Assembly (NCBI GenBank): GCA_023701385.1
Contig: JAMPXC010000019.1
Span: 1 to 57,532 of the forward strand
Direction: 5' to 3'
Length of the DNA: 57,532 bases
Source of the DNA: Pseudobdellovibrio sp.
GTDB lineage: Bacteria > Bdellovibrionota > Bdellovibrionia > Bdellovibrionales > Bdellovibrionaceae
A program made the position numbers and the translations under genes. Below, one piece after another: positions 35,637 to 52,675 of this stretch (positions are counted from its first letter, which is position 1; the number at the start of each line of letters is the position of its first letter). Under the pieces are notes generated by a model. It did not search any database. It was not told the DNA's origin and saw nothing but the letters and a program-made list of their open reading frames with translations.

Positions 35637-36698
35637 ATGTCTAATGACTCTAGCGCAACTACAGTTCTTCCGAGTTCACAAAATCAAACACAAATGAGTT
35701 GGAATCAAAACCAAACTCAAAAAGTGATCGAAAACAGATCAATCATCTACAAATCGGACGTTATGGGCCAAATGATGAAAATGATCGACCGTGTGGCTCC
35801 TTCACAAGCTAACATCCTTGTTCTTGGTGAATCTGGAACTGGTAAAGAGTTAATCGCTCGCGCTGTTCATGAAAAATCAAACCGTAGAACTAAACCATTC
35901 GTTGCGATCAACTGCGGTGCTTTACGTGAAACATTATTAGAATCTGAGTTATTCGGTCACGAAAAAGGTTCTTTCACGGGTGCTTACAATAAAAAGATCG
36001 GTTTAGCTGAAGTTGCTAACGGCGGAACATTATTCTTAGACGAAATCGGTGAGTTACCTCTTGCGATCCAAGCTAAACTTTTACGTTTTATCCAAGAAGG
36101 CGAAATCTTCCGCGTTGGTGGTAAAGAGCCAATCAAAGTTGATATCCGTTTAATCTGTGCAACTAACCGTGAGTTAGACCAAGAAGTTGTCCGTGGTAAC
36201 TTCCGTGAAGACTTATTCTATCGTATTAACACGATCGTAGTTGCAGCTCCTCCTTTACGTCGTCGTAAAGAAGATATTCCAGTTCTTATTCAATATTTCT
36301 TATCACAAGGTCACTCGTACCTTAACCGTGGTAAAACAATTGATGAAGAAGCTTTAAAATTATTAGTAAAATACGAATGGCCAGGTAACATCCGTGAATT
36401 ACAAAACGTTTGTGAACGTTTACAGATTTTATCTGAAGGCCACATGATCATGACGAACGATCTTCCTGACTTCATCCGTAATCCTGAAGTTAAAGAAGAA
36501 GGTCTTGAGTTTGATCCTTCAATGCCACTTTATGAATTAGAAAAACGTTATATCATCAAAGCTCTTGCTCACTACGGTGGAAACAAAACACAAGCGGCGC
36601 AAGGTTTAGGTATCACGATTAAGACTCTTTACAACAAACTTCATGAGTACGGTGAGTTCGAAAAATACGCTGTACACACGAAGCCTGCTAAAGATTAG
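35637..36698 (+). CDS. Sigma54-dependent transcriptional activator (AAA+ plus Fis-type HTH, no receiver)
   Basis: The protein has 353 residues. An N-terminal Gln/Asn-rich stretch (about 1-32) replaces a receiver domain. The sigma54 AAA+ domain has Walker A GESGTGKE, a GSFTGA loop near residue 116, Walker B LFLDEIGEL and an R-finger region in NFREDLFYRIN. The C-terminal HTH has GGNKTQAAQGLGITIKTLYNKL. This is a free-standing activator of sigma54 promoters, with input unknown. Target promoters cannot be read here. Confidence 0.92.
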   Translation: MSNDSSATTVLPSSQNQTQMSWNQNQTQKVIENRSIIYKSDVMGQMMKMIDRVAPSQANILVLGESGTGKELIARAVHEKSNRRTKPFVAINCGALRETLLESELFGHEKGSFTGAYNKKIGLAEVANGGTLFLDEIGELPLAIQAKLLRFIQEGEIFRVGGKEPIKVDIRLICATNRELDQEVVRGNFREDLFYRINTIVVAAPPLRRRKEDIPVLIQYFLSQGHSYLNRGKTIDEEALKLLVKYEWPGNIRELQNVCERLQILSEGHMIMTNDLPDFIRNPEVKEEGLEFDPSMPLYELEKRYIIKALAHYGGNKTQAAQGLGITIKTLYNKLHEYGEFEKYAVHTKPAKD

Positions 36699-48961: not shown

Positions 48962-51172
48962 ATGACCAATAAACCTACCGAAAATGTCGAGTTACTGAAA
49001 AGACGAAAAGAAGTTCTATCTATTTTTGTTATTTCAATCATGCTCGCCATTTTGATCGGTATCGAGGTTTTCGTATTCCGTTCCGGCCAAACCTTACCAA
49101 GTCCGTACATCATTTATTTTATTGGGCTTGTTAACGTAAACTTAATTTTAGTTTTATTACTTCTGTTTTTAATTTTTCGTAACGTCGTCAAAGTGTTTAT
49201 CGAGCGTCGCGGAAAAATTTTCGGTTCTTCGTTAAAATCAAAACTGATTATCGCCTTTGCCACGTTCTCGGTTATTCCGACATCGTTAGTTTTGATTCTT
49301 TCGGTTTTCTATCTTAACAGCTCATTTGACCGTTGGTTTTCACAGCGTATGATCGGTATTTTAAAAAATGCCTCTGAAGTGATTGATTCATTCATCACGC
49401 AAGAAAAACGCAAAGGTTACGACTACGCTGAGATGGTGGCGCAGGCCATTCAAAAAACGCAAAGCCCACAAAAGATCGACGAAACTCTAAAAAAACTGCA
49501 ACGTGATTACAAGCTTGATGCAGTTGAGTATTACCCAGATCTTTTATCAGAACGCTATATTGCTCAAGACGCCAAAGCGATCAAACAGGTTGTGCCAAGG
49601 CCTAATTTTGATTTTTTACAAAAAGGTTTTTTACACGAAAGCGAAGCCAGTTTGGTGCAAGTTTTTTCAGATTCACATTTGCTGCGCATGATGGTGCCAA
49701 TGGATCACGGTGTCGTTGTTGTATCTAAAATTTTAAATTTAGCCCCAGGGGCAAAGTTTGACGATATCGTCGGCGCTTACCAAGAATTCCAAACCAACAC
49801 ACTGATCGAAAATCCACTAAAGTCGATGTACTTCGTTATGCAGATTGTGATGTCGTTAGTTATCTTATTTGCGGCGATTTGGTTTGGTTTCCATTTGGCG
49901 AAACAATTATCAGTTCCGCTGGTGCAATTAGGCCGCGCTACAAAACGTGTCGCAGGCGGGGATTACTCATCATTAGAAATTGAATCAGGGTCTGAAGAAA
50001 TCAACAGCCTTATCGGAAACTTCAATCAGATGATTTCAAATCTTTCATCATCTGAATTAGAACTGCAGCAAACAATTAAAAACTTAAATCAATATACAAC
50101 TTACGTTGAAATTGTTTTAGGAAACGTATCTGCCGGTGTTTTATCGGTGGATATGGCGGGTGTGGTGACAACGATGAATCGCCGTGCTGGTGAATTATTA
50201 AATACTGATCAAACAAAAGCTGTTGGTAAGCCAATCAAACAATTGTTAGATGAGCAAAACTACAAAATTTTCTCGCAGTTTGTTCGTGCAATGCAGGAAA
50301 ATAATTTAACAAGTTTACAAAAAGAAATTCGTATAGAAGTTGAAAAGCAGACTGAAAAAGGCATTGAAAAAGAACCAATTCCTTTATCAGTTCACATTTC
50401 AATTTTACGTAATGAGTTCCAGCAACAAATCGGTCGTATCATGGTATTTGATGATATGACTCCGATCGTAAATGCGCAGCGTGCAGCGGCTTGGCAAGAA
50501 GTGGCCCGTCGTATTGCTCATGAGATTAAAAATCCATTAACGCCGATTAAGCTTGCGGCTGAACGTATTTCAAAAAAATACGGTGAGCAAATTAACGAAC
50601 AGGCTTTTAGAGACTCAATTCAGATGATCGTGTCGCAAGTGGATGATATGCGAAACCTCGTGAATGAGTTTTCGCAGTTTGCGCGTATGCCTGAACTTAA
50701 ACAAATTCACGCCCAGTTAAACGATGTTTTAAAAGGCATGGGTGAAGCTTATTCGCAAAACCATACGGATATTAAATTTAACTTAGAATTAGACCCAGCA
50801 TTGCCAGAATTTAAATTCGATCCGGCTCAGCTAAAACGTGTGTTTGTGAACCTGCTTGATAACGCGGTTCATGCAACTGAGGACGCCACAGCACAGATCG
50901 CAAATCCTGAAGTGACAATTCGTACGGAATACCAAACTCAGCACAGAATTGCCCGAATTTACATCATTGATAACGGCCCAGGAATCCCAGCGCGCGATAG
51001 AGTGCGTGTATTTGAGCCTTACTTCTCAACGAAAGAAAAGGGAACAGGTCTAGGTTTACCGATCGTGAAAAGTATTATCGAAGATCACGGCGGCGTCATC
51101 CGCGCTCTCGGTAACGAACCGCAAGGTACTAAAATTTATATTGAGCTTCCACTGTATACATCGGCGCCATAA
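48962..51172 (+). CDS. ntrY: NtrY-like sensor histidine kinase
   Basis: The protein has 736 residues. It has several N-terminal membrane helices (about 20-40, 50-75, 97-120), a periplasmic region, another helix (about 285-305), HAMP and PAS regions, HisKA with RRIAHEIKNPLTPIKL near residue 515, and HATPase (NLLDNAVHAT, DNGPGIP, GTGLGLPIVKSI). The layout is that of NtrY. It pairs with the NtrX-like gene after it, from which it is separated by a palindromic insertion-like element. Signal is unknown; nitrogen in relatives. Confidence 0.88.
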   Translation: MTNKPTENVELLKRRKEVLSIFVISIMLAILIGIEVFVFRSGQTLPSPYIIYFIGLVNVNLILVLLLLFLIFRNVVKVFIERRGKIFGSSLKSKLIIAFATFSVIPTSLVLILSVFYLNSSFDRWFSQRMIGILKNASEVIDSFITQEKRKGYDYAEMVAQAIQKTQSPQKIDETLKKLQRDYKLDAVEYYPDLLSERYIAQDAKAIKQVVPRPNFDFLQKGFLHESEASLVQVFSDSHLLRMMVPMDHGVVVVSKILNLAPGAKFDDIVGAYQEFQTNTLIENPLKSMYFVMQIVMSLVILFAAIWFGFHLAKQLSVPLVQLGRATKRVAGGDYSSLEIESGSEEINSLIGNFNQMISNLSSSELELQQTIKNLNQYTTYVEIVLGNVSAGVLSVDMAGVVTTMNRRAGELLNTDQTKAVGKPIKQLLDEQNYKIFSQFVRAMQENNLTSLQKEIRIEVEKQTEKGIEKEPIPLSVHISILRNEFQQQIGRIMVFDDMTPIVNAQRAAAWQEVARRIAHEIKNPLTPIKLAAERISKKYGEQINEQAFRDSIQMIVSQVDDMRNLVNEFSQFARMPELKQIHAQLNDVLKGMGEAYSQNHTDIKFNLELDPALPEFKFDPAQLKRVFVNLLDNAVHATEDATAQIANPEVTIRTEYQTQHRIARIYIIDNGPGIPARDRVRVFEPYFSTKEKGTGLGLPIVKSIIEDHGGVIRALGNEPQGTKIYIELPLYTSAP

Positions 51173-51177
51173 GACGC

Positions 51178-51277
51178 TAAAGTCTTTCTTTAAGCCAGCC
51201 CCGCGTTGCCGCGTCGTCGACGTACGTAAACGTACGCCTTCCTCCTTGCGCCTTGGTCTGACTTAAATAAAGTCTTT
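51178..51277 (+). mobile_element. Palindromic MITE/REP-like element with 10-bp flanking repeats
   Basis: An imperfect inverted repeat runs about 51188-51265, centred on CGTACGT-AA-ACGTACG near 51231, with matching TTAAG-CAG ends. It is flanked by identical TAAAGTCTTT copies at 51178-51187 and 51268-51277, like a target-site duplication. It contains no open frame and sits between ntrY and ntrX. Confidence 0.6.
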
Positions 51278-51289
51278 AGAGGAATTTTT

Positions 51290-52675
51290 ATGACTGTTTT
51301 GCACGAAGAAAAACTAAAAACGCGTATTCTAATTATCGACGATGAAGGGCCAATTCGTCAGGTCTTATCTGAAAGTTTAAAAGACGACGGTTTTCATGTT
51401 TTAACAGCCCCAGATGGACCTACAGGTTTACAAGTTCTGCAAGAATTTAAACCCCATATTTGTTTCTTAGATATCTGGATGCCGAAAATGGACGGTATCG
51501 AAGTTTTGACACAAGCAATTCCACACAACCCAGAGACGCAATTCATTATGATCTCTGGTCACGGAACAATTGAAACAGCAGTTAAGGCCACTAAAATCGG
51601 CGCGTGGGATTTTATCGAAAAACCACTTTCACTAGAAAAAATCACTTTAGTGATTGATCACGTTTTAAAATTCAAAGCTGAAAAAGATGAAAAACAAGCG
51701 TTGTTAAATAAATTAAGAAAAAATATCGCGCTTGTGGGTGAATCTAAATCGTTACAAAAAGTGCGTGAACAAATCACAACAGTAGCTAAAACTCAGCAAA
51801 CGATTTTAATTTCGGGTGAATCTGGATCGGGTCGTGAGTTAGTGGCGCAAAACATTCACTTTATGTCAGCGCAAGCCAGCCGTTCTATCGTTGAAGTGAA
51901 CTGTGCGACGCTACCGCAAGACTTAATCGAGATCGAATTATTCGGTATCGAAAAAGGTGTATTGCCGGGAATTGATAAAACTCGTAAAGGTAAATTAGAA
52001 TTGATCGAAGGCGGCACAGTGATCATCGAAGAGATCGAAGAAATGCCACAAGCGATTCAATTAAAACTTTTAAATTATTTAAAAGCACAAAAGTTTTCGC
52101 GCGTAGGATCGGCTGATCCAATTGATGCGTCTTCACGTGTGATCTTAACCTCATCGCAAGCTTTAACAGGCTTAATCAGCAGCGGAAAAATTGCGACTGA
52201 GTTAGCGGCGTTATTACAAAATAACGAAATCCACGTTGAGCCTTTACGCAATCGCCCTGAAGATATTCAGTCGTTAATTTTTCACTTCAGCGACATTATC
52301 GCTAAACAAATGGCTTCATTTAGAAAAACAATTTCTGAACAAGGTTTAAAACTTTTAGTTAAACACACATGGCCCGGAAACATCCGCGAGTTAAAAAACT
52401 TTATCGAGCGCGTGTATATCTTAACGCCGTCTGATTACGTTGACGTGCATGATTTACGTTTTGCCGGTCTATCAGATAAAAAAGATGGCCAACAGGGTTC
52501 ACACTCTGAAATTTCAACGTTCCGTGATGCGCGTGCGGAATTTGAAAAAGATTATTTAATTAAAAAAATCCAGGAAAACGGTGGCAACATTTCAAAAACG
52601 GCTGAAGCCATTGGTTTAGAGCGCAGTTACTTACACAGAAAAATCAAAGCATACGGTATCGAGGTTAATATATGA
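51290..52675 (+). CDS. ntrX: NtrX-like response regulator with degenerate sigma54 AAA+ domain
   Basis: The protein has 461 residues. A receiver (about 10-125, DDEG, phospho-Asp in [11 protein letters not shown]) is followed by an AAA+ region with GESGSGREL (Walker A Lys replaced by Arg), no GAFTGA loop ([12 protein letters not shown] instead), and VIIEEIEEM in place of the usual LFLDEI Walker B. A Fis-like HTH ([22 protein letters not shown]) ends it. It likely binds DNA but does not act as a classical sigma54 ATPase. It overlaps proS by four bases. AGAGGA is the ribosome site. Confidence 0.85.

Follow-up and report, generated by a model that had tools for sequence, protein, structure and literature searches.

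The window analysed here, the whole stretch of 57,532 nucleotides of Pseudobdellovibrio sp. DNA (contig JAMPXC010000019.1, assembly GCA_023701385.1), carries an ntrX-like response regulator gene that follows a gene for an ntrY-like sensor histidine kinase (see table). The initial annotation had the coordinates, frame and length of the regulator gene right: it lies on the plus strand, starts with ATG and encodes 461 amino acids. In this open reading frame Pfam recognises a receiver (residues 13-121), a sigma54-activator AAA+ domain (148-314; PF00158, 150.3 bits against a cut-off of 20.2), a lid and a Fis-type helix-turn-helix (HTH; 415-455), so that the receiver-AAA+-HTH layout expected of NtrX is present. 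The expected pairing with an NtrY-type kinase is found as well: NtrY_N, HAMP, PAS, HisKA and HATPase domains are all matched by Pfam in the adjoining upstream gene. Among the NCBIfam models, the NtrX equivalog NF051870 scores highest at 383.8 bits and its curated cut-off of 600 bits is missed. The same cut-off is missed by two GAFTGA-bearing orthologs from the class Bdellovibrionia (480.6 and 495.7 bits), by one class ortholog that has no GAFTGA (476.6) and by a Desulfuromonas sequence (523.3 bits); the model is therefore narrow, and 'NtrX-like', rather than formal NtrX, is a fair name.

The gap between the two genes measures 117 bp in the window against 35 bp in the closest species. It contains an element with a core at about 51204-51253, four more copies of which occur elsewhere in the genome. 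Its imperfect inverted arms give a long hairpin when folded as DNA (z -2.39), and it looks like a REP- or MITE-like insertion within an apparent operon. About 15 kb upstream of the ntrX-like gene, at 35637-36698, lies a receiver-less canonical sigma54 activator of 353 amino acids with a GSFTGA loop.

Table. Features of the ntrY-ntrX locus and motif positions within the NtrX-like protein (window coordinates)
Feature	Position	Strand	Remarks
ntrY-like sensor histidine kinase, presumed partner	48962..51172	+	H, N and G boxes matched by simple patterns
ntrY-ntrX intergenic stretch	51173..51289	+	dispersed hairpin-forming repeat within
ntrX-like response regulator gene	51290..52675	+	461 aa, ATG start; receiver, AAA+ core, lid, Fis-type HTH
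Receiver domain	51323..51655	+	residues 12-122; intact phosphorylation pocket D17, D18, D61, S89, K111
AAA+ core	51728..52237	+	residues 147-316; confident fold prediction, replaced catalytic residues
Walker A, GESGSGRE	51815..51838	+	Lys182 to Arg; P-loop glycines retained
Loop 1, GVLPGI in the GAFTGA position	51956..51973	+	equal length; position-4 Thr to Pro (T226P)
Walker B, VIIEEI	52019..52036	+	Asp247 to Glu; Glu248 retained
Sensor I	52145..52156	+	residues 286-289; Asn289 to Ser
Arginine-finger helix	52193..52213	+	residues 302-308; Arg302 to Ala, Arg308 to Leu
Sensor II, GNIREL	52376..52393	+	Arg366 retained
Fis-type HTH	52520..52660	+	residues 411-457; recognition region near-identical between GAFTGA and non-GAFTGA orthologs

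Substitutions in the AAA+ core

How much of a sigma54 enhancer-binding protein is left in this product? The hallmarks are absent, with GVLPGI standing for GAFTGA and R182, E247, A302 and L308 at the ATPase positions; the names of these positions (Walker A and B, loop 1, the sensors and the arginine fingers) are those in general use for the family. The initial annotation had read an arginine in Walker A (GSGRE) and IIEEI in Walker B, and both readings are borne out, as is its view that the receiver and the HTH are intact. Its 'missing' GAFTGA loop is correct for the motif and incorrect for the loop, which has been substituted at unchanged length and not deleted. Its list of substitutions did not include the losses of the arginine fingers and of the sensor I Asn. 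The arginine-finger segment reads IATELAAL, in contrast to FREDLYYR in many canonical orthologs, and the loss of both fingers is the stronger argument against ATP hydrolysis. Arg occupies the Walker A position in all 14 orthologs of the window's own genus, and dN/dS for the whole gene is 0.038 against the closest species, whose protein is 95% identical; the substitutions are thus neither chance nor sequencing error.

Could ATP hydrolysis or sigma54 contact persist with the altered residues? Glu248 and the sensor II Arg366 are retained and a Lys to Arg exchange preserves charge, but the change T226P comes with replacement of both arginine fingers, the sensor I Asn and the Walker B Asp. According to the available text of PMC3419264 (Table 1), single changes at such sites nearly abolish the ATPase of PspF: the wild type turns over 39.5 ATP per min, against 0.23 for D107A, 0.18 for R162A, 0.08 for R162H and 0.17 for R168A, while activity of K42A is not detected, in a table that holds no K to R or D to E variant. 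We regard persistence of either activity as very unlikely.

The source genome (3.18 Mb in 96 contigs) provides internal controls. It encodes 12 other strong PF00158 proteins, which score 204.7-253.8 bits against 153.2 for the NtrX-like protein. All 12 retain the Walker A Lys, GAFTGA or GSFTGA, the Walker B Asp-Glu and both arginine fingers, and their sensor I residue is Asn in seven and His in five. The change in the ATPase motifs is specific to the NtrX-like gene within this genome, and a general decay of its activators is ruled out by the canonical state of the other 12 at Walker A, loop, Walker B and arginine fingers. Loss of sigma54 as the cause is likewise ruled out, as rpoN is present in the source genome and matched in 129 of the 143 class genomes. 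The 14 genomes without an rpoN match, many of them incomplete drafts, include both states of ntrX (GAFTGA in G121 and G122; the window's own genus in G005, G008 and G011).

Given sigma54, 12 canonical activators and a recognition helix that is that of canonical NtrX orthologs, the protein might be an anti-activator, occupying enhancer sites or joining mixed rings with one of the intact activators and so damping sigma54 transcription. A second NtrX-like protein is, however, not found in the genome at E <= 1e-80, the other 12 activators reach 162-245 bits in a tblastn search with the NtrX-like protein against 935 for itself, and the changes in arginine fingers and sensors leave ring building with partners uncertain. 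Such a role therefore appears unlikely to us.

Two states of one orthologous gene

Orthologs were matched at E <= 1e-90 in 121 of the 143 class genomes, and the motifs were examined in all 121. GAFTGA is present in 36 of them (22 genera, 7 families), every one with all seven ATPase residues. It is absent from the remaining 85 (36 genera), and 84 of these have lost at least two of the seven. The exception, G055, has the loop GSFAG with one residue deleted and has lost none. No genus among the 58 is mixed, just 16 of which have two or more members. Altered loops of full length favour Pro at position 4 (64 of 83 ungapped loops), and Walker A Lys has become Arg in 17 of the 121 orthologs, namely the 14 of the window's genus and one in each of three other genera. 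The initial annotation had left room for the substitutions being standard in the family. This is so for the Lys to Arg exchange within the genus and for GAFTGA loss within the window's own family (65 of 65 orthologs, 20 genera), and not so across the class, where 36 orthologs retain the motif. The canonical class orthologs share with the window protein the ntrYX gene order, the receiver pocket and the recognition helix; unlike it, they retain every sigma54 and ATPase residue examined. The receiver pocket is invariant wherever it is readable among the class orthologs, and the recognition helix is the same in canonical and non-GAFTGA orthologs.

That a paralog has been mistaken for NtrX is ruled out by the conserved gene order: of 36 distinct ortholog loci compared (two of them in duplicate), 35 have proS on the downstream side and 32 have ntrY on the upstream side. 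The sequence starts at ntrX in two of the four loci without ntrY (L056, L074). The other two, from the window's own family, have upstream DNA in which ntrY was not found within 1.9-3 kb of ntrX (G021, L052; G023, L069:1872-3212), and in these genomes ntrY may be absent or located elsewhere. By motif, an upstream kinase frame is detected in 64 of 68 loci with sufficient flank, and simple patterns match all three kinase boxes in 43 of 56 loci without GAFTGA and 7 of 8 with it.

A few genomes depart from this picture in other ways. G026 has a second NtrX-like regulator (L075:2899-4374; 274.9 bits) with canonical GAFTGA and ATPase residues, and none of ribH, ntrY and proS was found as its neighbour on L075. 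In G010, a draft genome of the window's own genus, the ntrX frame ends after 306 amino acids, before the lid and HTH (L068:3356-4276), and the proS match starts about 470 bp past the stop; a frameshift or a sequence error may have cut the frame short. No NtrX match at E <= 1e-90 was found in 22 of the 143 class genomes. At least 12 of these 22 are genomes of 1.2-2.1 Mb from family f4 in which rpoN is still present, pointing to a regulator that has been lost or has strongly diverged there.

The origin from a sigma54 activator, which the initial annotation had proposed, is strongly supported: orthologs in 22 other genera carry the full GAFTGA and ATPase motifs, loci of both states have a common gene order, and the three outgroup genomes have GAFTGA. 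How often and in what order was the canonical state abandoned? We built a tree from 76 of the 121 orthologs after removal of the motif columns, with three genomes from a different order as outgroup. It implies no fewer than nine changes of the GAFTGA state, four of them forced by well-supported branches. A tree that leaves out residues 147-372 requires 11 changes, three of them forced in this way; both trees are quick and have many weak branches. Since the outgroup has GAFTGA, these state changes are best read as losses, and several separate conversions have probably occurred in the class, their number being uncertain. An independent-pairs test of the coupling between GAFTGA and the ATPase residues yields 3 supported pairs only, too few to reach significance. 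Nearly every conversion has cost the loop Thr of GAFTGA and the sensor I Asn; the Walker A Lys has changed least often, to Arg only. By genus, 34 of the 36 without GAFTGA have lost the sensor I Asn, 23 the Walker B Asp, 17 the Walker B Glu, 15 and 16 the two arginine fingers, 7 the sensor II Arg and 4 the Walker A Lys. These figures suggest that loop and sensor I changed first and Walker A last, an order drawn from counts and not from a dated series.

Selection and what the AAA+ domain retains

The AAA+ core is the part of the protein in which constraint has changed. In ortholog pairs with 50-92% receiver identity, the median ratio of AAA to receiver divergence is 0.60 for 624 GAFTGA pairs versus 1.89 for 3157 pairs without the motif, and the HTH to receiver ratio is 0.55 versus 0.51; as pairs share history, these medians are descriptive and not p-values. 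Conservation by site, with one row per genus (22 with GAFTGA, 35 without, the G055 genus being left out), gives the same contrast between domains: values with and without GAFTGA are 0.65 and 0.64 for the receiver, 0.76 and 0.75 for the HTH and 0.59 and 0.52 for the lid, against 0.75 and 0.48 for the first half of the AAA+ core and 0.78 and 0.38 for the second. In the comparison of the window gene with its closest relative, dN/dS by a simple counting method (dS 0.62-1.10) is 0.021 in the receiver, 0.057 in the AAA domain, 0.012 in the lid and 0 in the HTH. Relaxation is confined to the AAA+ core, yet purifying selection persists there, and the gene is in use.

The fast divergence of the AAA+ core and the truncated frame of G010 in the same genus could be taken as marks of a decaying, functionless gene. 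The low dN/dS, overall and most of all in the HTH, the conserved gene order and the receiver pocket, invariant where readable, argue against such decay, which we find barely credible; a pseudogene is ruled out by dN/dS.

What does the core keep? The 22 GAFTGA genera have 77 invariant AAA sites. These include the P-loop glycines G176, G179 and G181, which each of the 35 genera without the motif has kept too. All 35 likewise have a basic residue, Lys or Arg, at position 182, as do all 121 orthologs. Among the 35 (G055's genus again excluded) Thr226 is retained in 0 of 34, N289 in 1 of 35 and D247 in 12 of 35. The 'lost ATPase' of the initial annotation thus holds for the residues of hydrolysis and does not extend to the P-loop glycines and the basic residue 182, which stay. 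As these are kept, nucleotide binding may survive, and the pocket may still hold nucleotide without hydrolysing it. Other core glycines are equally constant, so a purely structural reason for the constancy of the P-loop glycines is also possible. An AlphaFold2 model (mean pLDDT 88.7) places the AAA+ part on active NtrC1 with 1.6 A rmsd over 247 residues (Z 28.5), a match of fold and not of function; its pTM of 0.61 leaves the predicted arrangement of the domains unsure.

The same observations allow the AAA+ domain to have been repurposed as a ligand sensor, in which the level of ATP or ADP, or a dinucleotide such as c-di-GMP, would be the switch, as in FleQ and VpsR. In its favour are the basic residue 182 and the constant P-loop glycines while hydrolysis residues drift, the purifying selection that still acts on the core, and fold matches, among many activators, to FleQ with c-di-GMP (5exx) and to VpsR (7v2b). 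Against it, an Arg just after Walker A is a c-di-GMP contact in VfmH and FleQ, according to the available text of PMC10714721. The window protein reads ELVAQNIH in this stretch, and Gln187, in our reading probably the equivalent position, is shared by all 22 GAFTGA genera and by 28 of the 35 without the motif. We consider a ligand switch rather doubtful.

Proposed mode of action and known relatives

We favour a different model as the likely one. The NtrX-like protein is predicted to bind DNA under the control of phosphorylation and to regulate sigma70-type promoters; it would be a former sigma54 activator whose AAA+ domain is now a non-hydrolysing scaffold that may bind nucleotide. Its ancestor was an NtrX-type, ATP-driven, sigma54-dependent activator, a mode of action that the protein would since have abandoned. 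NtrY would presumably phosphorylate the receiver at D61, a reaction for which the residues are present. The phosphorylated protein would then bind, through its unchanged Fis-type HTH, the kind of DNA site bound by canonical orthologs; the recognition helix is conserved, and the sites presumably are too. From there it could act on sigma70-type promoters, where it would block RNA polymerase or recruit it. A repressor or sigma70-type role, as put forward in the initial annotation, may fairly be inferred by analogy. The AAA+ core, in which the sigma54 contact motif is absent, would have become a scaffold; its catalytic sites are replaced, and the PspF mutants make ATP hydrolysis very unlikely, although the kept P-loop may hold nucleotide passively. 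The acting form would probably be a dimer or small oligomer. The arginine-finger variants of PspF are constitutive hexamers in the available text of PMC3419264, a precedent that does not favour a dimer. More tentatively, we envisage a wider scheme, possible rather than probable, in which one sigma54 activator has been converted in parallel with its DNA reading unchanged, the loop Thr and sensor I changing first and Walker A last and only to Arg, while the kept P-loop serves as a passive sensor of the energy state.

Regulators of this kind, related to sigma54 activators but devoid of GAFTGA and acting at sigma70 promoters, are already known. In the available text of PMC10274813, the NtrC proteins of Caulobacter and Rhodobacter capsulatus are examples, and Caulobacter NtrX lacks GAFTGA too. 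In these two NtrC proteins the loop is deleted, whereas it is substituted here. According to the same text, ATP binding is required by R. capsulatus NtrC, and Caulobacter NtrC still depends on the Lys of Walker A and the Asp of Walker B. Loss of the loop alone thus does not make hydrolysis superfluous, and the Caulobacter NtrC case counts against our mechanism. VpsR of Vibrio cholerae, as described there, works without GAFTGA at sigma70 promoters and reportedly does not need ATP. It binds c-di-GMP, as the title of 7v2b indicates, and is 24% identical to the window protein in the structural match. The available text of PMC3162934, a 2011 survey, gives TyrR, DhaR and HupR as homologs that work independently of sigma54. 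It reports about 110 homologs whose loops deviate, with Pro preferred at position 4 as here. NtrX, NtrY, Walker motifs and Bdellovibrio do not occur in its main text.

The closest structural counterpart is NtrX of Brucella abortus (5m7n, 5m7o, 5m7p), the best PDB match by sequence and by Foldseek and, by VIA-align 2, just behind NtrC1/NtrC4 (Z 33.3 versus 34.9). Both proteins have the receiver-AAA-Fis layout and neither has GAFTGA. In our own reading of the alignment, however, Brucella NtrX keeps the Walker A Lys, the Walker B DE, both arginine fingers and the sensor II Arg; it has four loop residues deleted and its sensor I Asn changed to Ala, whereas here the loop is substituted and the hydrolysis residues are lost. 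The Brucella structures include ATP and ADP forms, according to their PDB titles.

What, then, is new? In the literature searched, which takes in few subscription journals, no paper dealt with Bdellovibrio NtrX or with such a conversion series, and in the available text of PMC12316311 ntrY-ntrX is named once, as having sigma54 promoters, and Bdellovibrio goes unmentioned. It seems new that a single orthologous gene at one locus exists in both states with many intermediates, and that the loss extends to Walker B, to the arginine fingers and also to Walker A, the last mainly in a single genus. The switch from ATP-driven sigma54 regulation to another mode has so far been known from scattered single cases; here one class, which has retained sigma54, offers the end states together with intermediates, so that the order of steps, the retention of DNA targets and the role of an AAA+ domain after hydrolysis become testable. 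The setting is that of relatives of predatory bacteria, in which parts of an ATP motor have been lost and the signal-receiving and DNA-reading parts kept. Annotation as a sigma54-dependent activator is probably wrong for the whole family.

Similar conversions may occur elsewhere, beyond the class. The best 80 matches to two peptide patterns include 68 named loci that we place outside it by their titles, with Desulfuromonadales, Nitrospira and others among them, some perhaps not NtrX. Of these 68, 60 combine GAFTGA or GSFTGA with the full set of seven residues and 4 have another loop with the full set; 3 have lost the loop with some of the residues, and 1 combines GAFTGA with changed Walker residues. 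An upstream reading frame with a kinase H-box accompanies 56 of the best 80 matches. The single GAFTGA case is an NtrX-like protein of Desulfuromonadales (L173:4989-6341) with Arg at the Walker A Lys and Asn and Gly at the Walker B Asp-Glu, the reverse pattern, in which the ATPase residues are lost and the loop is intact.
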